This document shows, piece by piece, positions 38,341-51,985 of a stretch of DNA of 56,443 bases. The stretch comes from an uncultured Lachnospiraceae bacterium (GTDB lineage Bacteria > Bacillota > Clostridia > Lachnospirales > Lachnospiraceae), in NCBI GenBank assembly GCA_900318375.1, contig ONKG01000009.1:1-56443 (forward strand). Reading direction: 5' to 3'. A program made the translations under genes and the position numbers. The number at the start of each line of letters is the position of its first letter. Position 1 is the stretch's first letter. The notes beneath the pieces were generated by a model. The model had not been told where the DNA came from. It saw nothing but the letters and a program-made list of their open reading frames with translations, and searched no databases.

Positions 38341-41300
38341 TCATAACTCAGCCGCCAAAGCTTGTCTTTGTGGCATGACCGGAGATGCTACTGCAAGCGC
38401 TGACCGAGCCTGTTCTTTCTTTTCAGCCAGCCGCTTTGCCATGCTTATGGGGTACGGGACTACGGGTGCGGCAGCCAGGCCAGGTCGTTCGGTGGTGCTT
38501 TTCTCCCTCCTTCCCGTTTCATTCTCCCTGCCATAGCGAAGGTCTTTTTTCTCTGAAATCGTTTCCCTTTCTTCCTCCACATTCTCTGCAGTCACCTCAT
38601 CAATGCCGACAGCATCCATGCTTCCATGTTCGTCAAGATTGAGAAGCGCGTTGAGTTCCGTCAGACGCTCCAGCTTCTCGGCGAGTTCGGCCTCTTTTTC
38701 AAAAGGCTTCTCCACCTGCGCACGGGCAGTTTCCAATTGATCCTGCAAGGTTTCCAGCTTTCGCTGTGCTCCCTCCAGCTGGCTGTCAATACTTCCCAGG
38801 ACGTTGTTGAGTCTCTGAATGATGCCGTAGGGATCCTTACCTGTTTCGATGGGATAGCTGCATCTGCCCCGAACGGTCATGATGAACTTCTGTGAAAAGG
38901 TGTCAAAACCGGCCTCTATGGAGAAGCCTTGGTACTCAGCAGCCTTTCCGGATGTGCCGGCCTTACGCAGGGCGCTGCAGGCTTCGAGAAGAGCGGTTCC
39001 TGCCTCTTTTTTGTCCGTGTAGGAAGTCCCGCCGACTTTCATTTCAAAATCCTCGTTTTTTGATTCGCTTTTCAATTCTATGGACGGATTAAAAGCTTCG
39101 TATGTCTTCAGGTCTGCTGTCAGTCCCGCGATCCTCTCTTTGACAGCGGCGATCTGCTGAGGATAGGTTCTAGCGATGTCCGTCTCCAGACGGTATTTCT
39201 GGGCTGTGTGGTTAGCTTTTAAGAGCTTCAGCTTTGATACCTGGATGTCGAGGTCCATTTTTTCCCTGATGTGAGGGTTGCCGGTGCAGAGCGCCTTGAT
39301 CTCCGCATAGTTGAGCACAGCCTCATCCACGTCCTCGCAGGCCCGGACCGGGGACTTGCTGGTCATAATCTGGGAGATGAACTTCTGCTTGTTTTCCAGC
39401 ATCTGCCAGAGATAACTGTCAAAAGTTCCTTCTGTGACATAGCGAAAGATCTTCACCTTGGGGTTATGGTTGCCCTGGCGGAGGATCCGTCCTTCCTGCT
39501 GTTCCAGGTCAGACGGTTTCCAAGGACAGTCCAGATGGTGGAGAGCGATCAGCTTATCCTGCACATTGGTGCCGGCTCCCAGCTTGGGTGTGGAACCAAG
39601 AAGAACACGCACCTGGCCGGAGCGGACTTTGGTAAAGAGTTCGGCCTTCCTAGCCTCTGTATTCGCTTCATGGATGAAGGCGACTTCCTCCTTCGGGATC
39701 CCCATGGCAACAAGCTTGTTCCGGATGTCATCGTAGACATTGAAGCTTCCGTCCGCTTTTGGCGTTGACAGGTCGCAGAAGACCAGCTGGGTCAGGCGGT
39801 CTTTTTTTGTCTCCTCCCAGACATTGAAAACATTCTTGACGCAGCAGTTGACCTTGCTCCCGGGATCATCCGGCAGCATGTCGTTGATCAGACGCTGGTC
39901 CAGGGCGCACTTTCTGCCGTCATTAGTGATCCGGAGCATGTTGTCGATGGATGGATCCAGACGGCCGGACCGCACTCTTTCTGCCCGTTCCGCAAAGGAA
40001 GCCACCATGTCCTTCTGGATCTGGCTGGGTTTTAAGACCTCGTTGATGTATTCGGCCTCCGGTGTCGGAAGGTCGAGCATGTCCGCAGTCTGGACATCCG
40101 CCGCCTCCTTAAAGACCGAGATCAGCTCCGGGAGATTAAAAAAACGGGCGAACCGCGTTTTCGCACGGTAGCCCGTTCCTTCCGGCGACAGCTCGATGGC
40201 TGTCACCGTCTCCCCGAAAGAGGCCGCCCAGGAGTCAAAATGCCCCAGGCCCATCCTCTGGAGGGTGCTGTATTGCAGATAGCGCATGACCGTATAGAGC
40301 TCGACCATGCTGTTGGAGACCGGGGTCCCCGTGGCGAAGGTAACGCCCTTTCCGCCGGTCAGTTCGTCCAGATACTGACACTTCATGAACATGTCGCTGG
40401 ACTTCTGCGCGTCCGTCTGGGAGATGCCTGCGACGTTGCGCATCTTCGTATAGAGAAACAGATTCTTGTAAAAATGGCTTTCATCCACAAAAAGCCTGTC
40501 CACGCCCAGCTGTTCGAAGGTCACTACATCATCCTTCCTTGTCTGGTCATTGAGTTTGGCCAGCCTCGTTTCCAACATGCGGCGGGTCTTTTCCATCTGT
40601 TTAATGGTATAGCGCTCGCCGCGCTCGTATTTGGCCTCATTGATCGCTGAGGTGATGTCATCGATCTGTCCCTGGATCGACGCGGCCTGCCGTTCCCTGG
40701 AGAGCGGGATGCGTTCAAACTGGCTGTGGCCGATGATGATGGCGTCATAATCCCCTGTCGCGATCCGGCTGCAGAACCTTTTCCGGCTGGCTGGTTCAAA
40801 GTCCTTTTTGGTCGCGACAAGGATATTTGCCGCCGGGTACAGGCGCAGGAAGTCCGCTCCCCACTGCTCCGTCAGGTGGTTGGGCACGACATAGAGGCAC
40901 TTCTGGGCGAGGCCGAGCCTCTTGGACTCCATACCGGCGGCGACCATCTGGTAGGTCTTGCCGGCACCTACACAGTGGGCCAGAAGGGTGTTGTCCCCGT
41001 AGAGGATATGGGCAACCGCGTTTTTCTGGTGCTGCATGAGGGTGATCTCAGGCGTCATGCCCACGAACCGGATATGACTGCCATCGTACTCCCGTGGACG
41101 CACGCTGTTGTAGATCTCGTTGTACTTGGCAACAAGGTCCTCTCTGCGTTCCATATCCTGGAAGATCCACTCACGGAAGGTGTCCCGGATCAGTTCCTGC
41201 TTCTGCTGGGCCAGCATGGTCTCCTTGCGGTTGAGGACGCGCCGCTCGGAGCCGTTTTCGTCCCGGATGCTATCGTAGATCTTGGTATCCCGCAGGTTCA

Positions 41301-44300
41301 GGGCATCTTCCAGAAGCCTGTAGCCATTGACACGGGACGTTCCAAAGGCATTCCGGACAATGGTATTCCCCAGATCACGGGTCTTGCCGGTCACCTGCCA
41401 CTGGCCGGTGATGGCGGCATATTTGACCGAGATCTCACTGCCCAGGAAGTACCTCGGCGTATGAAAAGTCTCCCCCATGAACTGGGTGATGTACGCAGGG
41501 TCGACCCAGGTTGCTCCGAGCCTCACTTCGATTTCCGAGGCATCCAGCTGTCTGGGCTGAACCTTTTCCAGGGCTTCCGCATTCACCGAAAAGTGGGGAT
41601 CTGCTTCAGCGGCAGCCTTTGCGGTTCTAAGCTTCTCCCGGACATTCCCGGAAAGGTACTCATCCGAAGTTTCCCAGTTCCCATTCGAGGGGTTTTCAAA
41701 GATGATGCCTTCCAGATCCTGGATGATCTCATCCCTGTCCTTCCCGCAGAGCTGCTCCATGTAGGCAAGATCAACTCTTGCTTTTTCTCCGATAGAGACA
41801 GCAAGAGCCTCACTGGCAGTGTCCACGGATGTGACCGGTACAGCCCGGCGGATTGTCCTCTTGGTGAAAATATCCGCCTTCCGCTCCAGCTCCCCATGCT
41901 CATCCAGGATTTCGAGGGAGCACAGGAGACAGTATGAGGAATCCTGGGAAAAGGCCCGCTTGTTCGTCGTGCTGCTGATCAGACCGAAGTGATCCCGGAA
42001 TCGGTCGTAGTCTGAACTCAGCTTTTCCTGCAATGCTCGTATGGACGCGTCATCTGCATCCTCCATCTGCAACTCAAGGAGACTGCGGGTCGTATCACGC
42101 AGGTCGATCATCCCGCGCACCCGGTCCGCTGTCACTGCCGGCAGGTCAACAGGATCCATCCGGGAGTTCTCACGGAAATAGATCCTGCCATTTACCTCCG
42201 TAAAAGAATAGTTCCGGACGGTCGGGTCTGCCGGGATGCTCTCTGTGGACTCCTGAATAAGGTCGTCATCGGTGATCTCGGCTTCCGTGATGCTGCCTTC
42301 GATCCTGCCAAGGGCCTCCCGCAGACTGGTTTCCAGGTCTCTGTCCTCAAAGGGCAGGACCGTTGTTTCCTCCTGGCCGAACTGGTTGGTTTTCTGTTCC
42401 AGCTGCCCCAGGACCATCTCCGGATGCAGGGCAAAGTAGGTGTTGATCTCATGACCGTCCGGCGTCTGGGAAAGATGTGTCCATTCCGGCATCTCCAGGA
42501 CTGCCCGATCCCTTTTCTGGAAAAAGAGGATGTCAGCCACAACATTCGTGCCGGCATTTCGCCGGAATGCATTGTTGGGAAGGCGGACGGCTCCCAGGAG
42601 GTCTGCCCGCGCGGCGATATACCGGCGGACCGATTCTCCGCGCTTGTCCATGGTGCCGCTGGAGGTGATCACCGCCACAACACCTCCGGGGCGCACCAGG
42701 TCCAGGGACTTGGCAATGAAATAATCATGGATCAGGAAATTCTGGCGGTCGTAGCGGCGGTCGGCCAGCTTATAGTTCCCAAATGGAACGTTCCCGATGA
42801 CGGCATCGAAGAAGCTGTCCGGAAACTGTGTCTCCTCAAAGCCCTGGGCTGCGATGGGATTCTTCTGGTAAAGCTGCCTCGCGATCCCTGCGGAGATCCC
42901 GTCCAGTTCTACGCCGTACATCCGGATGTCCTGCATGCTGTCCGGAACCATGCCCATAAAATTGCCGATGCCGCAGGAAGGCTCAAGCACGTTGCCGCCC
43001 GTAAGGCCCATCCTCTCCAACGTCTCATACATGCTCCGGATCACCATGGGCGGAGTGTAGAAGGCATTCAGAGTCGAAGCCCTCGCCGCGCGGTATTCCT
43101 CCTCTGTGAGTATTTCCTTGAGTTCCGCATACTCGGCTGACCACGAAGTATTGTTCTCATCAAAAGCCTGGGGAAGGCCGCCCCAGCCGACATAACCGGA
43201 AAGAACCTCTTGGTCCGTGGGCGTTGCCTGTGCGTTTTCCGCCTGCAGCCTTTTCAGGGTGCGGATCGCCTCCAGGTTGGCCCGGAACTTTTCTTTTGGG
43301 GAACCTGCGCCGAGATCATCGTCGGTGATCCGGTAATTGATGGGGTCGGAGGCAGCGAAAGGCGTCTGCGGGACTGCGGTTTCTGTAGATTCTGCAGATT
43401 CCTCGATGGGCATTATGGCATCTGCGGGTACATCGATGATTTCCCCGCCGACAGTTTCTATGATGTCATCGATAACTTCGCCGCTGGATGTATCTATGAC
43501 ATCGCCTGTGAGGGTTTCAGTGGCTTCAAGAGTTTCAGCCTGGCTGGAACTTTCTTCCGGAGCCGCAGGCAGCACATCGACGGTATCTGCATCCGCCTGG
43601 AATTCTTCTGGCAGGTCTTCTTCACGGATCTGGACAAAGCCATTCCCGTCCCCGCCCGGTTCTGCCTCCCATCCATTTACCAGGCTGAACAGGGACATCT
43701 GCTCAGCTCTTCCAAGCACATCCGCCTGGGTTTCCACCTTTTGCGGGAAGATCGTATAGAGTCCCTCCGCGTACTGGTGGAGGGTGGTGAGGATCGCGGA
43801 CCGCTGTTTGTAACGGTCTTCGGTGGCAGGAAGGGCAGTCAGAACTTCATCCATGCGGGCAAGCATTTCTTCCAGGCCGCCTTCCTTTTCCATGCCTGCA
43901 TAAACCGCATCCCTGATATGGTACAGGTCGGTTTCCTCCGGCCATGGTCGTATAATCTCCTCCGGAAGGCGGCTGTAGAAAGATACGATCTCAGAAGCCA
44001 TCTGCCTGCGCTCATAAGCAGGCATTTTTGCATAATCCGAGGCCTTCAGGTATTCATTCCTGTCCAGGAGGTGCTCGATCCGCTGCTCGACCTGGTTCCA
44101 GCGCAGTGTGACTTTGCTTGCGGGATCAGTGATATCTCCCCTTGTCAGGGTAAGTCCTTTTCCGTTGTAGTCCGCAAATGAATCATCCGCTCCGGAAAGG
44201 GCATGGCTCTGCCCGCCGGTCCCGTAGCGTTCGCGCAGGAAATCTGTCCTTTCTTTCCTGTCCTCGTGGTTCAGGAAGAAAGAGTAGATCGCAAGCCGGC

Positions 44301-46431
44301 CGTCCTCATAGACGGCATGGTTGGAAAGGAAGCTGTCGATCTCATCCTGGGTGATGAAAGTAGGCAGATCCGTTTCCCATGTGAAGCCCTCCCTGGCAGC
44401 ATAGGGGACAGCATCCTGCCTGAGCTTACGAAACTGTGCAGCGACAAGGTCTGGTTTGTAGAAGTTGAACCGCATGACTCCAGGATTTTCTTTATAGGCC
44501 AGTGCAAGACCATCCAGGCGGTCGCACAGGTCTTCCAGAAAGGCAGGATCTGCCAGGCGGGAAGCCACGTTTTTTTCAACATCCTGGAAACCGCCCCGGA
44601 AGATAGAAGAGTCTTCAAACACGATTTCGCTGACTCCGTCCGCGAGGTCCCTTTCCATGTAGGCGAGCACGCGGGCGTGCTCCAGCATGGCATTGTCCCT
44701 GGCAGCGTCCAGAACAGCCTGCGGTGCATACTCGCCCTGCCGCAGCAGTTCTCCGATCCTTCCGGCGACATCTTCCCAGGACAGGAAAGCCTTGTTCATG
44801 AGGTTGTCTTTTACAGTGTGGCCCTCCGCGACCTGTAGACCCAGTTCATCGAACCAGACGGAGTACTCCCTGCCGCCGATCACAATGCCTTTGCCGCCTT
44901 CCCGGTATTCCTTTTTCAGAAAGCTGATATGGTCTTCCATGGACCGTCCAGGATCTGCCATGTAGTCGTAGATGATCCGGAGCTGGCTCCGCTCCTGGTT
45001 GCTGCCGGTCCGCAGGATGGTATCAATCACATCTGCCTCGATGGGGATCTCCCCCGCATAGAGGGCTGCCTGGCGCTCCTCGATCGCACGGATCTGTGCA
45101 GGGACAGAAGGAAGTTCCGGCAACGACAAAGCGGAGGCCATCTCGGCCTCCGCTTCGGTCATAGGATCATCTTCAATTTCTGTACTGTCTGTCAGCTGTA
45201 CACCAACTCCTCCAAGACGGTCTCCTCGGCGATCAGGTTCAGCTTGTTCATGTGCTGCACCCAGCCCATCTGGTCCTGTGCTTTGTCGGGCGCCGGATGT
45301 TTCATCAGGAGCTGGTTCACGATCTCGTCCAGCCTCGCTTCCGCGTCCCGGTCCACCTGTCTCAGGTGCTCCTCCAGCTTCCCTGTTATCAGCAGGCCCG
45401 AATAATGCACGCCCCTGTGTTCCTTCAGGTAGGCCTTCCTCAGCCTCCCGTATTTCCCAATCGGCTCTTCCGATCCTTCCGCCATGTTCCCGATCACCAG
45501 ATTCGGGAACAGGTAATCGCCGTTCCTGTGATATGTCAGTTCCATTTACACGCCCTCCTTCTTCCCTGGCTTCTACTTCAGCTGCTTCCCGTGACGGTGT
45601 GTTTAACGAAGTATACTCTTGTACTGCCTGATTCTCAACCTCTTTTTTTGTGCTTTCCAGGATCTCTTTTTCCCTGTCTTCCAGAATGAATCTGCGGACT
45701 GTCCTGCCGATATCCATAAGGACCGGCTCGGCCATCTGATGGGTACCTTCGCCAAGTACGTTCAGGACCTGCAGCCTGTTGTAATCCGTGATCCCCGCAA
45801 AATCTGCCTCGTCGAGGATAAGTGTCGCATCCAGGCCGCACCGGGTCGCCAGAGTATAGAGCGTGCTGCTATAGAGGATGTATTCCAACTCGGCCTTCAC
45901 TGTTTCCGGGGGGAGGCCTTCCAGATAGCTGCCTGCAGACTGATCCAGGACTTCCCGCCACAGATCATCTATTCCTTCCTGCGCTGACCTCGAAGCAATC
46001 TCCTGCAGGGTTTCCAGAAGATCAATGGGCATCCGGTCCTCCAGGCCGTAGGTCTCCACCAGATGGTCAACCATACGATCCCTGTATTCTTCCTCCAGAT
46101 TCCACAAAAAAGGCGTCCTTCCTCCCCGTACCATGTGCGTGTCGCGGATATCAAAGACATATCGGAGCCTGGGCTGGTCACCGCGCTCATCAATAAGAGC
46201 TATTCCTTTAGCTCCCCGGTTGACCCAGCGGTTCATGCTCCGGTTCCAGACGTCCAGCTCGGCACAGGCAAAAGCATCAGGCCGCTGGGCATGGATCAGG
46301 AGTGCGTCCCGGAAGGGATAGCGATATAGCCGCGCTGCCGTGTCCAGGTAATTCATCCAGTCTTTGGGCGAGGCGCTTGCCCGCCGGGCAGTCTCCTCCA
46401 TGAGGGTCATTATTTCGTTGATTTTTGCCAT
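38341..46431 (-). CDS. Giant ICE protein: N6-DNA methyltransferase plus SNF2-type helicase
   Basis: The 2696-residue protein is the very large methylase/helicase found in Tn1549-like ICEs. Residues 1-130 look like the start of an ArdC-type domain. Residues about 290-415 are a low-complexity Gly/Arg/Glu linker (this is where tnpV is encoded in another frame). An N6-adenine methyltransferase domain follows: LEPSCGIGNFMG (about 1145, SAM binding) and GNVPFGNY (about 1213, NPPF-type). The helicase has HCVGAGKTYQM (about 1818, Walker A), DESHFYKN (about 1987, DEAH-like), ATGTPVSNS, and LEQQEGRILRQGN (about 2315, motif VI). A coiled-coil and a tail MAKRLAEKKEQARSA end it. It probably handles or protects element DNA during transfer. 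A terminator-like hairpin abuts its ribosome binding site. Confidence 0.88.
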   Translation of the reverse strand: MAKINEIMTLMEETARRASASPKDWMNYLDTAARLYRYPFRDALLIHAQRPDAFACAELDVWNRSMNRWVNRGAKGIALIDERGDQPRLRYVFDIRDTHMVRGGRTPFLWNLEEEYRDRMVDHLVETYGLEDRMPIDLLETLQEIASRSAQEGIDDLWREVLDQSAGSYLEGLPPETVKAELEYILYSSTLYTLATRCGLDATLILDEADFAGITDYNRLQVLNVLGEGTHQMAEPVLMDIGRTVRRFILEDREKEILESTKKEVENQAVQEYTSLNTPSREAAEVEAREEGGRVNGTDISQERRLPVPESGDREHGGRIGRADWEIREAEEGLPEGTQGRALFGPADNREAGGAPETGGPGRGSEAGRDREPAPDETSGARQSTGPDGLGAAHEQAEPDRRGDRLGGVGVQLTDSTEIEDDPMTEAEAEMASALSLPELPSVPAQIRAIEERQAALYAGEIPIEADVIDTILRTGSNQERSQLRIIYDYMADPGRSMEDHISFLKKEYREGGKGIVIGGREYSVWFDELGLQVAEGHTVKDNLMNKAFLSWEDVAGRIGELLRQGEYAPQAVLDAARDNAMLEHARVLAYMERDLADGVSEIVFEDSSIFRGGFQDVEKNVASRLADPAFLEDLCDRLDGLALAYKENPGVMRFNFYKPDLVAAQFRKLRQDAVPYAAREGFTWETDLPTFITQDEIDSFLSNHAVYEDGRLAIYSFFLNHEDRKERTDFLRERYGTGGQSHALSGADDSFADYNGKGLTLTRGDITDPASKVTLRWNQVEQRIEHLLDRNEYLKASDYAKMPAYERRQMASEIVSFYSRLPEEIIRPWPEETDLYHIRDAVYAGMEKEGGLEEMLARMDEVLTALPATEDRYKQRSAILTTLHQYAEGLYTIFPQKVETQADVLGRAEQMSLFSLVNGWEAEPGGDGNGFVQIREEDLPEEFQADADTVDVLPAAPEESSSQAETLEATETLTGDVIDTSSGEVIDDIIETVGGEIIDVPADAIMPIEESAESTETAVPQTPFAASDPINYRITDDDLGAGSPKEKFRANLEAIRTLKRLQAENAQATPTDQEVLSGYVGWGGLPQAFDENNTSWSAEYAELKEILTEEEYRAARASTLNAFYTPPMVIRSMYETLERMGLTGGNVLEPSCGIGNFMGMVPDSMQDIRMYGVELDGISAGIARQLYQKNPIAAQGFEETQFPDSFFDAVIGNVPFGNYKLADRRYDRQNFLIHDYFIAKSLDLVRPGGVVAVITSSGTMDKRGESVRRYIAARADLLGAVRLPNNAFRRNAGTNVVADILFFQKRDRAVLEMPEWTHLSQTPDGHEINTYFALHPEMVLGQLEQKTNQFGQEETTVLPFEDRDLETSLREALGRIEGSITEAEITDDDLIQESTESIPADPTVRNYSFTEVNGRIYFRENSRMDPVDLPAVTADRVRGMIDLRDTTRSLLELQMEDADDASIRALQEKLSSDYDRFRDHFGLISSTTNKRAFSQDSSYCLLCSLEILDEHGELERKADIFTKRTIRRAVPVTSVDTASEALAVSIGEKARVDLAYMEQLCGKDRDEIIQDLEGIIFENPSNGNWETSDEYLSGNVREKLRTAKAAAEADPHFSVNAEALEKVQPRQLDASEIEVRLGATWVDPAYITQFMGETFHTPRYFLGSEISVKYAAITGQWQVTGKTRDLGNTIVRNAFGTSRVNGYRLLEDALNLRDTKIYDSIRDENGSERRVLNRKETMLAQQKQELIRDTFREWIFQDMERREDLVAKYNEIYNSVRPREYDGSHIRFVGMTPEITLMQHQKNAVAHILYGDNTLLAHCVGAGKTYQMVAAGMESKRLGLAQKCLYVVPNHLTEQWGADFLRLYPAANILVATKKDFEPASRKRFCSRIATGDYDAIIIGHSQFERIPLSRERQAASIQGQIDDITSAINEAKYERGERYTIKQMEKTRRMLETRLAKLNDQTRKDDVVTFEQLGVDRLFVDESHFYKNLFLYTKMRNVAGISQTDAQKSSDMFMKCQYLDELTGGKGVTFATGTPVSNSMVELYTVMRYLQYSTLQRMGLGHFDSWAASFGETVTAIELSPEGTGYRAKTRFARFFNLPELISVFKEAADVQTADMLDLPTPEAEYINEVLKPSQIQKDMVASFAERAERVRSGRLDPSIDNMLRITNDGRKCALDQRLINDMLPDDPGSKVNCCVKNVFNVWEETKKDRLTQLVFCDLSTPKADGSFNVYDDIRNKLVAMGIPKEEVAFIHEANTEARKAELFTKVRSGQVRVLLGSTPKLGAGTNVQDKLIALHHLDCPWKPSDLEQQEGRILRQGNHNPKVKIFRYVTEGTFDSYLWQMLENKQKFISQIMTSKSPVRACEDVDEAVLNYAEIKALCTGNPHIREKMDLDIQVSKLKLLKANHTAQKYRLETDIARTYPQQIAAVKERIAGLTADLKTYEAFNPSIELKSESKNEDFEMKVGGTSYTDKKEAGTALLEACSALRKAGTSGKAAEYQGFSIEAGFDTFSQKFIMTVRGRCSYPIETGKDPYGIIQRLNNVLGSIDSQLEGAQRKLETLQDQLETARAQVEKPFEKEAELAEKLERLTELNALLNLDEHGSMDAVGIDEVTAENVEEERETISEKKDLRYGRENETGRREKSTTERPGLAAAPVVPYPISMAKRLAEKKEQARSALAVASPVMPQRQALAAEL
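45192..45545 (-). CDS. tnpV: TnpV, nested in another frame inside the helicase gene
   Basis: This 117-residue frame on the same strand as the helicase gene matches TnpV: MELTYHRNGDYLFPNL, then IGKYGRLRKAYLKEHRGVHYSGLLITGKL and a C-terminal QMGWVQHMNKLNLIAEETVLEEL. ATG 45545 is preceded by AAGGAGG with eight bases spacing, a perfect ribosome binding site that has no purpose for the helicase frame (REEGGRVNG there). The helicase reads this stretch as a low-complexity linker, as expected if tnpV fixes the sequence. TnpV is known from Tn4451-type elements; its role is not settled. It is either a truly overlapping gene or the result of insertion of tnpV that kept the helicase frame open. Confidence 0.8.
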   Translation of the reverse strand: MELTYHRNGDYLFPNLVIGNMAEGSEEPIGKYGRLRKAYLKEHRGVHYSGLLITGKLEEHLRQVDRDAEARLDEIVNQLLMKHPAPDKAQDQMGWVQHMNKLNLIAEETVLEELVYS

Positions 46432-46604: not shown

Positions 46605-47174
46605 TCATTTTCTGTAAAAAGGACATCTACCGTGGATACACTGCCGGTTCCGATCTGAGAATTCACAGGGATGGTATTTGTAATCCAGTTTGACGTCATA
46701 ATGACTGTTAATGTACTCGACACTGTGGCGGAAAGCGAGCATCGCGTCCCGCTTACAGCATCTGGGGCCATTGACCGCTCCGAGCGCGCTTATTGCTTCT
46801 GAAGTGAACCGCATATGTTCTCCCCATGTCCCGTCCTCTGAGAGTGGCCCGGTTCCATCTATGATGGCAAGTGCTGCCCCGATTGATGAAATCGCTCCAC
46901 AGACTCCCCAGAGTCCGCACATGGCACCCGGCATCCGCAGGCCCTGCACCAGGATCTGACTCAGCGCCTGTTCCAGATCAATTTTTCCACCGGCATTCCT
47001 GTAAGCGGTCAGGATACAGGCTCCATCCAGAACATGGTGCTCCGGTCCGTGCATGTTCATATATTCCTTCTGTGCCATGCGCCGGAAAATCCGTGCCGGA
47101 TCATTGCCCTCTTCCTTTACTATATCCTGAATGATCAGCATTGCTCTGTCTTTTATCGTCATTTCCATACTCAT
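46605..47174 (-). CDS. DUF5714 domain protein
   Basis: The 189-residue product matches DUF5714: NMHGPEHHVLDGACILTAYRNAGG, then PGAMCGLWGVCGAISSIGAALAI with the CGxxGxCG core and a C-terminal Cys-rich end (GPRCCKRDAM, CEFSDRNRQCIHGRCPFY). The conserved Cys residues suggest metal or cofactor binding; the reaction is unknown. ATG 47174 has AGAGG eight bases upstream and is preferred to TTG 47180. It lies 15 bp after the gene at 47190-47588 and ends before a strong terminator. Confidence 0.75.
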   Translation of the reverse strand: MSMEMTIKDRAMLIIQDIVKEEGNDPARIFRRMAQKEYMNMHGPEHHVLDGACILTAYRNAGGKIDLEQALSQILVQGLRMPGAMCGLWGVCGAISSIGAALAIIDGTGPLSEDGTWGEHMRFTSEAISALGAVNGPRCCKRDAMLAFRHSVEYINSHYDVKLDYKYHPCEFSDRNRQCIHGRCPFYRK

Positions 47175-47189
47175 CCACAAAACCTCTTA

Positions 47190-47588
47190 TCAGATATTAT
47201 CTTTCTTGGAAGCAATGATTTTCCCATTCAACAATCCGTTTATTCGCTCTACAGGAAACACATCTTTAATACTCTCAATTCTATACCTGCTCTTCGGCAA
47301 CTCCTTCATTCCGGTTATTGACAGGTACAGAGCAACAGCCTTTTTATCAATTGTGATGATGCCTCCGCCGGCCCAGTGCCTGTCTTCCCCGTTTTTCTTA
47401 ACTCCTGAAATCCAGTATTCTTCCTGCGTCTCCACATCAATATAATTGCTGTATTCCCCGTTTTGTCTCTGAAAAGCATGATCATTAAAGTAGACCATTT
47501 TTCCGGAGCGAGATTCTGTGACAAATCCGATCCAAGCCGGACCGTTGTCGTTCCAACCCGTCTTCAATTCTATGTATCTAAGTTCCAT
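47190..47588 (-). CDS. Conserved small protein, unknown function
   Basis: The 132-residue product (MELRYIELKTGWNDNGPAWIGFV, GKMVYFNDHAFQ, EYWISGVKKNGEDRHWAGGG) is of a type I have seen in Firmicutes, sometimes under the name deoxyxylulose-phosphate synthase, which is surely wrong because it has none of that enzyme's motifs and a fifth of its length. It looks like a compact beta-rich domain. ATG 47588 is chosen over GTG 47594. It is followed after 15 bp by the DUF5714 gene, so the two form an operon. Confidence 0.65.
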   Translation of the reverse strand: MELRYIELKTGWNDNGPAWIGFVTESRSGKMVYFNDHAFQRQNGEYSNYIDVETQEEYWISGVKKNGEDRHWAGGGIITIDKKAVALYLSITGMKELPKSRYRIESIKDVFPVERINGLLNGKIIASKKDNI

Positions 47589-47713
47589 AATCACTCTCGA
47601 TTCATTTCCCTTATTTCAGTTTTTTGTTTTACACTACCCGGAATCCTTTCCTCTGTCAAAGGGAACAAGCCTTATTTCAATCGTTGCTAAGCGAGAATTC
47701 TGTTTTAAGTTTA

Positions 47714-47728
47714 TGGTGCCTGGCACCA
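47714..47728. repeat. TGGTGCCTGGCACCA palindrome
   Basis: A 15-bp palindrome (7-bp arms around one base) lies in the gene-poor gap between the AAA-DUF4143 gene and the gene at 47190-47588. I recall the same motif as a frequent intergenic repeat in Clostridia, not verified here. Confidence 0.5.
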
Positions 47729-47758
47729 ACGTGGAGCGATTCCTATAATAGAATTTGC

Positions 47759-49066
47759 TCAGTCTTTAAGACAGCCGACAGGGATCACGTGAACCCCATT
47801 TTCTGTTGTATATGCTATTGGCGCATTTGCACAGACGATAATCAACAGAGACGGTTCCCTATACACTGGTTTTGGATGATTGATATTTGCTTTGGCCTTG
47901 CGGTTGTGTTCTTGAATGAGGCTATAGAACTTCAACAGACCCTGCTCTGCTGCCGGAATTGCATTCGCGCCCGTTTTTATCTCGATCAATGCATAACGTC
48001 CATCGGCCATTTGATATACAGCATCCGCCTCCAGACCGCTGTCATCGCTATAATGCATGACCTTCGCATTGTGAGCCTGCGCATACACCAGAAGATCTCT
48101 TAACACCATGTTTTCAAAAACATGGCCAAAAAGATCCAAATCGTTGTTGAAATAGGCAGGGCTCAATCCAAGTGCTGCTATCCCGATGGACGGATCAACA
48201 AAAATGTGCTTCTTTGCAGAACGAATCGCTGTTTTTGCACGAATCTGCGGTGTCCAGGCGTCAATATCGCGAAGGACAAACAGTTTTTCCAAAACAGAAA
48301 TATATGATGAGAGCGTTACATCCGTCACATTCTGCGTGGCCTTTACATCAGCATAGATGCTTGTTTTTTTTGCCAAAGTGGCCATATTTCGCGCATATGA
48401 CCACAACAGTGTGCGCACCCATTCCGGATTTCTTTTTACTCCGTCAATGGCACTGGCATCCTTCTGGTATATCTGCCTATAGTAATCCTTTGCGATCTCA
48501 AGCTTTGCTTCCCGGTCGGATATAGCCAGACATCTCGGCCACCCGCCGCGACAAGCAGCAAAGAACAGGTCTTCAAGTATTGTCTGAGAAAATGCACCTG
48601 TCAGAGGAATCTCCGGATGATCAAAAAGCTTCGACAGAGAGACTGCACCATTGGATTCTCCTGTCTCCCATAACGTCATCGGATACATGATGAGCTCACT
48701 GATCCTTCCTGTTCCAGTATGAGGTGTATCTGTTTTCCGGCTGGTCGAACCTGTCAAATAATACTCGCCTACAGCTTCGGGATGATCATCACAGTCTTTT
48801 CTGATCGCCCCCCAGATTTTAGGGGCATCCTGCCATTCATCAAAAAGAATTGGCTTATCATTGGAGAAAAACAGTCGAGGTGCCGTTTCAGCAACAGCCA
48901 GGTAACCATCGCGGCGCTCTTCATCCTGGAATTCAATGATTGTCTTGCATCTCTCCTGAGCGGTCCTGGTCTTGCCGCTCCCCTTGGGGCCTATAATATT
49001 GATTGCATTGAAAGCCTTTATTCTTTTATCGATCTCCTGATCCACAATCCTCCTGATATATTCCAT
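47759..49066 (-). CDS. AAA ATPase with DUF4143 domain
   Basis: The 435-residue product has an AAA_14 ATPase domain: Walker A IGPKGSGKTRTAQ (about residues 24-36), Walker B ILFDEWQDAP (about 93-102) and the GSTSRK sensor. The DUF4143 part has SYISVLEKLFVLRDIDAWTP and a C-terminal LEADAVYQMADGRYALIEIKTG, which has the D...ExK pattern of PD-(D/E)XK nucleases. The role of this large family is unsettled; binding of nucleic acid or a toxin-like role are options. ATG 49066 has AGGAG eight bases upstream. It has its own promoter overlapping a 23-bp repeat array, and it breaks the ICE gene order, so it is probably cargo. Confidence 0.8.
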   Translation of the reverse strand: MEYIRRIVDQEIDKRIKAFNAINIIGPKGSGKTRTAQERCKTIIEFQDEERRDGYLAVAETAPRLFFSNDKPILFDEWQDAPKIWGAIRKDCDDHPEAVGEYYLTGSTSRKTDTPHTGTGRISELIMYPMTLWETGESNGAVSLSKLFDHPEIPLTGAFSQTILEDLFFAACRGGWPRCLAISDREAKLEIAKDYYRQIYQKDASAIDGVKRNPEWVRTLLWSYARNMATLAKKTSIYADVKATQNVTDVTLSSYISVLEKLFVLRDIDAWTPQIRAKTAIRSAKKHIFVDPSIGIAALGLSPAYFNNDLDLFGHVFENMVLRDLLVYAQAHNAKVMHYSDDSGLEADAVYQMADGRYALIEIKTGANAIPAAEQGLLKFYSLIQEHNRKAKANINHPKPVYREPSLLIIVCANAPIAYTTENGVHVIPVGCLKD

Positions 49067-49179
49067 ATGGCATTCTCCTACTCCCTGCAGCAAGTTTTAC
49101 TGCAGATGCTCGACTTGCTGACGTCCTCCGGGACGCCGTATTATGTCTCGTATGATAAGTACGCAGCCCTTTGAATGCC

Positions 49180-49324: not shown

Positions 49325-51985
49325 TTATTCCCACTTGCTCTTCATCTTCTTTTTCCCCTTTTTATCCCGCTTCGGGAATTCCAGGGAGTATTCGGGCTTG
49401 TCGTCAATGATCTCCATGACCAGCTTTGCGGAGAAGTACTTGTCCTTCTTGGCGGAATAGAGGTTATCGACCTTCACTTCGCCGTTAGTAAGGAGCTGCG
49501 AGGCCATATCGTCATCGACCTGCTTTTTCATGGAGCGGAGGAAGGCCAGGTCTTTCCAGATGACAAAGCGGCAGTCCTGGTTGGAGCAGAAATAGCTTTT
49601 GCTGCCGATCAGGACCGGGGTTCCGCAAATCGGGCATGTGCCGACTTCCTCAAAGTGTTTCAGACAAAGGCGGTCCGCGTCTGACACGTTCCTGCAGTCC
49701 ATCAGGATCTGACTGACAAGCGCCCTGATCTCCGTCATGAAGGTTTCTGCATCGATATTTCCTTTTTCCACCTGGAGGAGTTTATTTTCCCAGTCTGCAG
49801 TAAGAACGGGGCTTTTGATATAGTCCGGCATGACTGAGATCAGATCCATCCCGTCCTGTGTCGCAAGCAGCTTCCGTCCTTTTCGCTCAACGTAACCGCA
49901 GCTTATAAGGTGCTCAATGACTGACGCACGGGTAGCAGGTGTCCCAAGGCCCTTGCGCTCTGTTGCTTCATCAAAATCCGCTTTTCCCGCGTTTTCCATC
50001 GCGGAAAGCAGGGTATCCTCTGTGTAGGGGCGCGGCGGTTCTGTAAACCTTTTTTCATAGCGGCTCTGCATGCCACCTATGGACACACCCTCCCTCAGAC
50101 CGTCGGCAAGGAGGCCTGAGAAACCCTGTGCATTCCCGTCCTCCAGATCATCCTCATCCAGATAGTCTGCAATGGTTGTCTGCCTGTATTTCATAGAGTC
50201 GGGAATTTTTCCGCTGAAAGCTTTAAATCCTTCCTGTCTGGTCCTTCTTCCGGCTGCATGAAATAGGGTCTCTCCGCATAACAGCGCCACCTTTATATCG
50301 TCGTATATAAAGGGATCTGCAATGGATTCCATCAGCCTCATACAGATAAGGAGCAGAATATTGGAAGGGCCTTCCGGGATCGATGCAGTCTCTTCACGGT
50401 CTTCGATGGCAGATGTCGGAAGGATGGCATGGTGATCAGATACTTTTTCATCGTTTACAAGCCTGTTGAATCCGTTTCCAAGAGGGAGCCCGCTGATGCC
50501 CGGGATGGTATCATGGACAACTGATGCCAGCTCCTTTACGGAATCTGCCATTTCTGCAGGAATAAACCGACTGTCTGTCCGGGGGTAGGTGATATATTTT
50601 GCTTCATACAGCTTCTGGGCATAATCCAGGGTTGCCTTCGCGGTATAACCAAATACCCGGTTCGCGTCTCTCTGGAGCGAAGTCAGGTCATAGAGTCTGG
50701 GAGGCTGCTTTGTCCGCGTCTGGCGGTTCACCTCTACTACTACAGCATCACTTCCGGAGCACTTTTCGGCAAGTGATCTGGCTTCTTCCTCATCCGCAAT
50801 GTTATCAGATACAGCCCGGATCCCGTCCGCCTCAAGGATGACTTTGTAGTAGGGTTCTTTGTGAAATTTGTTAATAGCTTCCTGCCGTTCTACGATCATC
50901 GCCAGGGTGGGCGTCATGACACGGCCTATGTTCAGTTTCTTGAAATAGGTCCCCGTGAAAGCCCTGGTCCCGTTCATGCCGATCAGCCAGTCTGCCTGAG
51001 CCCTGCATTCTGCCGCGTCGAGGAGTTTTCTGTATTCTTCATCGTCCTTCATATTCTCCAGTCCATCACGGATGGCCTTGTCCTCGAGGGAATTGATCCA
51101 GAGCCTTTTGACCGGGATCCTGGATTTGGAGAGGGCATATACTCTGTGGAAAATCATTTGGCCCTCCCTACCACAGTCACATGCATTCAAAACCATCTCC
51201 ACATCGCGCCGGTTGAGGAGGCCCTCGAGCACCCGGAACTGTTTCATACGCTCCTTTATGACTTCTACCTTCCATTCCTGCGGGATGATCGGCAGATCTT
51301 CCAGTCTCCAGTTCCTGTACCTGGGATCATAGGCTTCAGGAACTGCATACTCTGCCAGATGTCCCAGGCACCAGCTACAGATAAACCCCTTGCCCTGGAC
51401 ATATCCGTTCATCTTTTCATATTTCCCCAACACGTGCGCAATGGCCAGTGATACGCTGGGCTTTTCCGCAATCACCAGATACATTTTGTCTGTATTCATT
51501 CTTTTCCCCTTTTCATCAAAAAAAATGCAGCTGCCTGTTCCCGGCAGCTGCTCCTTATCTGTAACTCTTTCTTCAATTCCTACGCCAAGCGGTTTTTCCT
51601 TATTCTCCATTTCTGCTTCTTCCCATGTCTTCAACTTTGGACCATCGTGGTCTAAAGTTCCTGATTCTCTATCTGCTATCAACTTTGGACCACCGTGGTC
51701 TGTAGTTCCTGATTTTCCATCTGCTTTCAACTTTGGACCATCGTGGTCTAAAGTTCCTGCTTCTCCATCTACTTCCAACTTTGGACCACCGTGGTCTAAA
51801 GTTCCTGCTTCATCATGTACTTCCAACTTCGGACCATTGTGGTCCATAGTTCCTGTTTCTCTATCTGCCTTCAACTTTGGACCATCGTGGTCCAAAGTTT
51901 CTGCTTCATGATTCCTCGACATCGTCCTCATTCTCAGTAGGGAACCGGGTGTCAGAATACTCCATGTTTTCGCTTTCAACATCAT
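49325..51985 (-). CDS. topB: DNA topoisomerase III with N-terminal repeat extension
   Basis: From MNTDKMYLVIAEKPS onward (ATG 51499) this is topoisomerase III: TOPRIM domain (IAEKPS, ACDCGREGQMIF), the active-site region YITYPRTDSRF with the catalytic Tyr, ERKGLGTPATRA, and a C-terminal zinc finger (CPICGTPVLI, CSNQDC). The frame is open for 162 more codons upstream. These code six 16-residue repeats (GTLDHDGPKLKADxEx). Internal ATG 51499 has AAGGGG six bases upstream and could give a normal enzyme; ATG 51982 has GGAGG six bases upstream and gives the long form. It relaxes or decatenates DNA and is a usual ICE gene. Confidence 0.88.
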   Translation of the reverse strand: MMLKAKTWSILTPGSLLRMRTMSRNHEAETLDHDGPKLKADRETGTMDHNGPKLEVHDEAGTLDHGGPKLEVDGEAGTLDHDGPKLKADGKSGTTDHGGPKLIADRESGTLDHDGPKLKTWEEAEMENKEKPLGVGIEERVTDKEQLPGTGSCIFFDEKGKRMNTDKMYLVIAEKPSVSLAIAHVLGKYEKMNGYVQGKGFICSWCLGHLAEYAVPEAYDPRYRNWRLEDLPIIPQEWKVEVIKERMKQFRVLEGLLNRRDVEMVLNACDCGREGQMIFHRVYALSKSRIPVKRLWINSLEDKAIRDGLENMKDDEEYRKLLDAAECRAQADWLIGMNGTRAFTGTYFKKLNIGRVMTPTLAMIVERQEAINKFHKEPYYKVILEADGIRAVSDNIADEEEARSLAEKCSGSDAVVVEVNRQTRTKQPPRLYDLTSLQRDANRVFGYTAKATLDYAQKLYEAKYITYPRTDSRFIPAEMADSVKELASVVHDTIPGISGLPLGNGFNRLVNDEKVSDHHAILPTSAIEDREETASIPEGPSNILLLICMRLMESIADPFIYDDIKVALLCGETLFHAAGRRTRQEGFKAFSGKIPDSMKYRQTTIADYLDEDDLEDGNAQGFSGLLADGLREGVSIGGMQSRYEKRFTEPPRPYTEDTLLSAMENAGKADFDEATERKGLGTPATRASVIEHLISCGYVERKGRKLLATQDGMDLISVMPDYIKSPVLTADWENKLLQVEKGNIDAETFMTEIRALVSQILMDCRNVSDADRLCLKHFEEVGTCPICGTPVLIGSKSYFCSNQDCRFVIWKDLAFLRSMKKQVDDDMASQLLTNGEVKVDNLYSAKKDKYFSAKLVMEIIDDKPEYSLEFPKRDKKGKKKMKSKWE
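51633..51900. repeat. Six 48-bp repeats, each with a palindrome, in the 5' part of topB
   Basis: AACTTTGGACCA begins at 51633, 51681, 51729, 51777, 51825 and 51873 (one base change in the fifth copy), a period of exactly 48 bp. In each, GGACCA and TGGTC(C/T) face each other around a 3-base centre, as in GGACCATCGTGGTCC. The unit is 16 codons, so the frame stays open. Confidence 0.9.

Follow-up and report, generated by a model that had tools for sequence, protein, structure and literature searches.

A tnpV gene nested in a second frame of a polyvalent helicase gene recurs at one site across several classes of Bacillota

Can a single stretch of bacterial DNA carry two genes on the same strand, one wholly inside the other, and how can such a pair be told from a gene that happens to cross a spare open frame? 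The question is raised by the window analyzed here, the 56,443-nucleotide (nt) contig ONKG01000009.1 (assembly GCA_900318375.1) of an uncultured Lachnospiraceae bacterium, in which an open reading frame (ORF) encoding TnpV lies entirely within the ORF of a 2,696-residue helicase/methylase, on the same strand and in the +1 frame. According to PMC9927249 and PMC8665328, there are few firmly established cases of long, fully nested genes in bacteria, and one of the two partners is usually dropped under annotation rules. The tnpV/helicase pair provides about 200 natural replicates, flanks that serve as a phase control, and free-standing tnpV genes as an outside control, so that selection on both frames becomes measurable. 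Our data make it highly probable (roughly 85%) that tnpV is a real, ancient gene, nested in the gene for a polyvalent protein of integrative and conjugative elements (ICEs) and plasmids and read from a start of its own.

The inner ORF occupies positions 45192..45545 of the minus strand and comprises 117 codons, from an ATG at 45545-45543 to a TGA. A perfect AAGGAGG (45554..45560, minus strand) precedes the ATG with a spacing of 8 nt, and a TAA in the tnpV frame abuts the ATG. The predicted product matches the Pfam family TnpV (PF14198) over the entire profile (positions 1-111 of 111), with an E-value of 1.7e-34 and a score of 118.5 bits where 27 is the cut-off, and AlphaFold predicts a short beta hairpin and four helices with a mean pLDDT (predicted local distance difference test score) of 90.3. 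The host gene spans 38341..46431 of the minus strand. The two ORFs are offset by 886 nt, i.e., 3 × 295 + 1, so that position 1 of a tnpV codon is position 2 of a helicase codon (phase 1), and the overlap corresponds to helicase residues 296-413 (45193..45546, minus strand). It directly follows an N-terminal domain (N-domain) of residues 1-295 (45547..46431, minus strand). The ORF list, the Pfam match and this offset thus bear out the original prediction with respect to the inner gene, its ribosome-binding site and the residues that it overlaps.

Using helicase residues 1-295 as the query, we found a match in 141 of 392 genomes of the order, while TnpV was detected by Pfam in 175 (the window's genome is counted throughout). 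Among the 150 helicase matches listed, 130 loci were studied, the 20 omitted being mostly fragments, weak matches or matches on short contigs. At 118 of these 130 loci, spread over 9 family and 50 genus codes, tnpV is nested in the helicase ORF, always with the +1 offset; with the same site and the same frame in 118 of 130 loci, the nesting is not a product of chance. As to the 12 loci without nested tnpV (L025, L030, L078, L105, L145, L150 and L157 to L162 in our numbering), the N-domain ORF stops early in L025 and L105, and L030 runs into a contig end. L078 has a repetitive, unrelated linker, L160 and L162 are divergent helicases with short linkers, L161 carries tnpV upstream, as seen in L372, and L145, L150, L157, L158 and L159 look like other ArdC-domain proteins. 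Among the hosts without any tnpV whose linkers were studied (L078, L160 and L162), no homologue that keeps the window's linker without a TnpV frame was seen.

Named genomes, scanned separately, showed the same picture, with 75 of 80 loci nested in +1; L243, L245 and L253 are contig ends, and L250 and L262 are frame-broken. None of the 76 named loci tallied as nested (L262 among them) has a second tnpV in its stretch. In a phylum-wide search, the N-domain was matched in 31 of 398 genomes, and the search returned 30 loci, 16 of them with the +1 nesting (in this set, L283 and L285 duplicate earlier loci and L308 is a weak match), the remaining 14 being mostly short proteins with part of the N-domain. 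L307 (genome G535), in which the methylase domain is present and TnpV was not matched, is a further host gene without a detected nested copy. Nine plasmid-collection records were chosen from the matches, and eight of them carry a nested +1 tnpV: those of Cohnella, Virgibacillus, two Enterococcus faecalis plasmids, Ruminococcus albus, Streptococcus agalactiae pR31-snf2-M, Anaerococcus and Monoglobus. In L381, an E. faecalis plasmid with a methylase/helicase-type host, nested TnpV was not detected. The nesting is found in Clostridia, Bacilli and Tissierellia. The original prediction had called the arrangement rare; judged by these samples, it is the rule within this helicase family and spans many gut and other Gram-positive bacteria.

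Divergence was counted by codon position in pairwise comparisons of 114 nested loci, binned by identity. The flanks before and after tnpV show the usual pattern of the helicase frame, with helicase position 3 changing fastest. Inside tnpV, helicase position 3 (tnpV position 2) is the slowest and helicase position 1 (tnpV position 3) the fastest, and this phase shift holds in all identity bins from 0.1 to 0.9. At 60 to 70% helicase identity, divergence amounts to 0.238, 0.161 and 0.379 for tnpV positions 1, 2 and 3, and to 0.280, 0.205 and 0.526 for the helicase positions of the N-terminal flank. Constraint in the tnpV frame, weak constraint in the helicase frame and a reversal in the flanks are what the original prediction had anticipated, and the phase shift, together with the Pfam match, indicates that the inner frame is under protein-level selection.

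For the outer frame, we compared 194 distinct nested copies (order and named sets pooled, duplicates removed) with free-standing tnpV genes, a sample made up of the top-scoring TnpV loci returned and 40 loci picked for their distance from any helicase match and without regard to whether the frame was open; L187, one of these 40, turned out to be nested and was reassigned. None of the 194 nested copies contains a stop in the helicase frame, where shuffling of synonymous codons within the nested genes predicts only 22 open copies, whereas all 61 distinct free-standing copies have at least one stop in the equivalent frame (mean, 4.8). At fourfold sites that precede AA, AG or GA, T is found in 0 of 2,866 nested cases compared with 10.1% of 880 free-standing ones; at other fourfold sites the values are 10.8% and 25.1%. 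When pairs of equal TnpV identity are compared, silent-site divergence is lower for nested than for free-standing copies in all bins between 0.3 and 0.8 (0.503 versus 0.684 at 40 to 50%). Base composition explains part of this difference: for distant pairs, the expected silent divergence is 0.641 for nested and 0.748 for free-standing copies, and the observed values are 0.544 and 0.695. These comparisons indicate that the outer helicase frame is kept open beyond chance and hydrophilic, and the nesting as a whole appears to be retained by selection.

What does the outer frame encode? In the host protein, Helicase_C and ResIII exceed their Pfam cut-offs, as does the adenine methylase domain (Eco57I, E = 1.8e-7; 31.9 bits versus 25.3), and SNF2-rel_dom, with 23.6 bits, falls slightly below its cut-off of 24.9. 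Several phage relatives of the helicase part are annotated as DarB-like antirestriction proteins. No Pfam ArdC match was found in the host protein at E ≤ 0.01. The top Foldseek match of the N-domain model is ArdC of R388 (6i89; E = 6.6e-3, probability 0.99), and none has E ≤ 0.001. With an ArdC-like N-domain, an adenine methylase and an SNF2-type motor, all by prediction, the host protein groups with the DarB-like or polyvalent proteins. An AlphaFold model of helicase residues 1-530 predicts the N-domain well (pLDDT mostly above 90 up to residue 260) and gives a pLDDT below 50 at residues 273-424, which span the overlap. In 194 loci, the linker abounds in G, D, E, R, S and P and is almost devoid of aromatic residues and Cys (F 0.5%, W 0.4%, C 0.0%). 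These loci, also used for the start signals, are the 118 and 76 nested loci given above, L262 counted, and differ from the 194 distinct copies. Since the tnpV frame is predicted to be folded and the helicase frame disordered, one frame would supply a fold and the other a spacer, which suggests how dual coding could be tolerated.

The original prediction also described the host as an essential ICE gene. This is not supported: an intact copy of snf2, a comparable ICE gene, was reported in only 8 of 155 Streptococcus suis genomes (PMC9815147), and transfer is reported for ICEs whose snf2 carries an insertion (PMC5357655, PMC12942858), with earlier excision of the insert being possible.

In 146 of 194 loci, the tnpV start has an AGGAG or GGAGG shortly ahead of an in-frame ATG; among 5,954 ATG-bearing control windows, taken in that frame from other parts of the host ORFs, 240 have the motif. 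A stop closes the tnpV frame within about 3 codons of the chosen start in 9 of 114 loci, leaving 0 to 3 open codons upstream. These start signals and nearby in-frame stops lead us to infer internal initiation. In this scenario, ribosomes would start on tnpV within the host message at its own Shine-Dalgarno (SD) site, while ribosomes translating the host gene would traverse the same bases as a floppy linker. The element would get both proteins from one message, and recombination could not separate them. The earlier claim that one stretch yields two proteins on the same strand is upheld insofar as both frames are kept open across many species; the production of both remains our reading of the sequences.

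The function of TnpV in such an element may lie with its host. Distances between TnpV sequences and between N-domain sequences are correlated with r = 0.87 over 114 loci, and 0 of 500 permutations reached this value. Furthermore, in five loci (L363 to L366 and L372), tnpV is a separate ORF directly upstream of the N-domain ORF, with spacing from an 8-nt overlap to about 200 nt, and the N-domain ORF was found to hold no nested tnpV; the methylase or helicase part is also matched in four of the five, L366 ending with its contig. Because tnpV is separate and just upstream in these loci, the two genes look linked. Since tnpV sits inside the helicase gene or directly before it, TnpV, small and predicted to be helical, could assist or regulate the DNA-processing protein as its partner during transfer, a weaker part of our proposal.

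Several observations weigh against our reading of the nested pair as a whole and should be set beside it. Helicase-frame residues show no excess conservation over the shuffles and the free-standing control, so that only openness and composition speak for the outer frame. The nested set is itself defined by tnpV lying within a helicase ORF that is open; in the samples collected by helicase match, however, we found no host ORF ending inside tnpV. Above 90% TnpV identity, silent-site divergence is not lower in nested copies (0.14, compared with 0.126 in free-standing ones). Two named loci are broken with tnpV intact: in L250 the host frame stops just ahead of tnpV, and in L262 the N-domain continues in frame into tnpV, possibly through natural frameshifts or draft errors. 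The SD core is absent from 10 of 114 tnpV starts, and in 4 of 118 loci no start codon was present in the stretch searched. Finally, most free-standing TnpV loci sampled have no helicase N-domain match in the 1 to 1.5 kb fetched around them, which makes the partner role a guess.

The alternative that survives best concerns this role. TnpV may be an excisionase-like directionality factor that has nothing to do with the helicase, with nesting merely economizing space. From its similarity to lambda Xis, a role in excision was postulated for TnpV of Tn4451 (PMC3158075), and free tnpV occurs in mobilizable transposons or beside recombinases (including H5 to H7 of our set). Nevertheless, tnpV tracks the helicase gene, as described above, and an Xis-like match was not among the TnpV fold matches, a weak test of an Xis-like fold. 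We regard such a role as possible but doubtful.

Much less probable is that the host frame is untranslated through tnpV, in which case the N-domain and the methylase-helicase would be separate proteins, tnpV an ordinary cistron between them and the open frame a by-product. The lack of excess conservation noted above fits such an arrangement, and the Monoglobus gene table begins an SNF2 protein after tnpV. However, an untranslated frame would hardly remain open in 194 of 194 copies when free-standing copies all carry stops, nor avoid T before AA, AG or GA without exception, and L369, L370 and L371 unite the N-domain and the core in a single ORF despite having no nested tnpV. We give just as little credence to the production of TnpV by frameshifting, as an ArdC-TnpV fusion that needs no inner initiation. 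In some loci the tnpV frame stays open ahead of the ATG for as many as 75 codons, and L262 reads in frame from N-domain into TnpV, but the TAA abutting the ATG in the window, the nine loci with only 0 to 3 open codons upstream and the SD sites at 146 of 194 starts argue against it. Least tenable is a recent transposon insertion that placed tnpV in a helicase frame left open by luck, which, although the family is named for a transposon gene and IMEs (integrative and mobilizable elements) with tnpV are reported in accessible parts of PMC9815147 to insert into snf2, is refuted by the distribution and constant frame of the nesting, with one site kept across N-domains of 33% mean pairwise identity and across three classes, and by the sole IME-associated copy studied, which is not nested.

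That copy belongs to L369 (G298:C116), a truncated helicase with a repetitive linker and no nested tnpV. Downstream of it lie a free tnpV and genes for a serine recombinase, an actin-like protein and MobA/MobL, an arrangement that taken alone would speak for the insertion reading. It is likely an IME inserted in a helicase gene, in agreement with the published cases.

If tnpV is a nested gene of long standing, how do its free-standing namesakes relate to it? Low-scoring free TnpV loci have stops in the helicase-like frame in 48 of 50 cases. In an unrooted tree that includes them, nested and free tnpV are interspersed, with 17 changes, at least 12 of which are forced by the starred branches. 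One site and one frame are common to the nested copies, so that a history of several exits is more economical than one of several entries, and free tnpV may have derived from the helicase gene in this way. The label "transposon gene" in the original prediction may therefore be backwards. In 134 of 189 loci, the tnpV frame comes closer in codon usage to the remainder of the gene; together with the predicted disorder of the linker, this hints that the tnpV frame is the older one, engulfed by the host. Only tentatively do we suggest that a host gene engulfed a neighboring tnpV once, early in the conjugative elements of Bacillota, and that the nested copy is the reservoir from which transposon tnpV genes repeatedly escaped. 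If so, the other frame of tnpV became the linker of its host, and the transposon genes for which the family is named came out of a helicase gene.

Two further kinds of TnpV ORF were observed. The window's genome has a second tnpV on another contig (L001, G000:C89), whose helicase-like frame has stops; a 540-codon open -1 frame enters its first part, an overlap that is terminal rather than nested. L343 to L347 and L360 (mostly from genome G172) are TnpV-like ORFs that match profile positions 1-70 only and possibly represent a shorter subfamily. Elsewhere in the window, a 48-bp tandem repeat of 5.8 copies (51630-51907) lies in the N-terminal part of a topoisomerase ORF and repeats a peptide of about 16 residues, and the interval between the topoisomerase and the helicase (46605-49093) holds a DUF5714 gene and an AAA_14/DUF4143 ATPase gene, possibly cargo.

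Gene tables may hint at why the nesting has gone unseen. Plasmid gene tables omit pseudogenes and are incomplete; for the eight nested plasmid-collection records, none lists both genes whole. Five list only the host, one (that of Cohnella, where the host ORF also has a break farther downstream) only tnpV, one (Monoglobus) tnpV with a shortened host, and one neither. L376, L377, L380 and L384 are records whose tables show tnpV only, helicase only, neither, or tnpV with a shortened helicase. Annotation may thus hide or shorten one partner in many mobile elements.

How does the pair compare with known systems? The inner protein shares a full-length profile match (118.5 bits) with TnpV of Tn4451, the prototype of PF14198; according to the part of PMC3158075 at hand, the prototype and its Clostridioides difficile kin are ordinary transposon ORFs, whereas tnpV here lies inside another gene's frame. 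The host shares with the polyvalent, DarB-like antirestriction proteins (PMC5512222) an ArdC-like N-domain, an adenine methylase and an SNF2-type motor in one polypeptide, all by prediction; in the main text of that paper no words beginning with TnpV or overlap were found, while the linker here would double as a gene. It also corresponds to snf2 of the ICESa2603/Tn5252-family ICEs, since S. agalactiae CP138365 (pR31-snf2-M) has a homologous gene with a nested +1 tnpV; the available parts of the snf2 literature treat this gene as an insertion target of IMEs and ICEs (PMC9815147, PMC5357655, PMC12942858) and leave an inner gene unmentioned. Likewise, among the open PMC papers listed by our literature searches, none reports tnpV nested in a helicase gene in its title or in the displayed opening of its abstract.

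Nested genes are already known as such, and what would be new is the case of tnpV in a helicase gene. Same-strand genes nested in phase 1 are represented by comS in srfA and by the phage gene Rz1 in Rz, and, as in these pairs, the smaller gene lies fully within the larger one, in another frame and with a putative start of its own. Unlike them, tnpV has relatives in its Pfam family that stand free or lie upstream as separate genes, and its nesting spans several classes of Bacillota.

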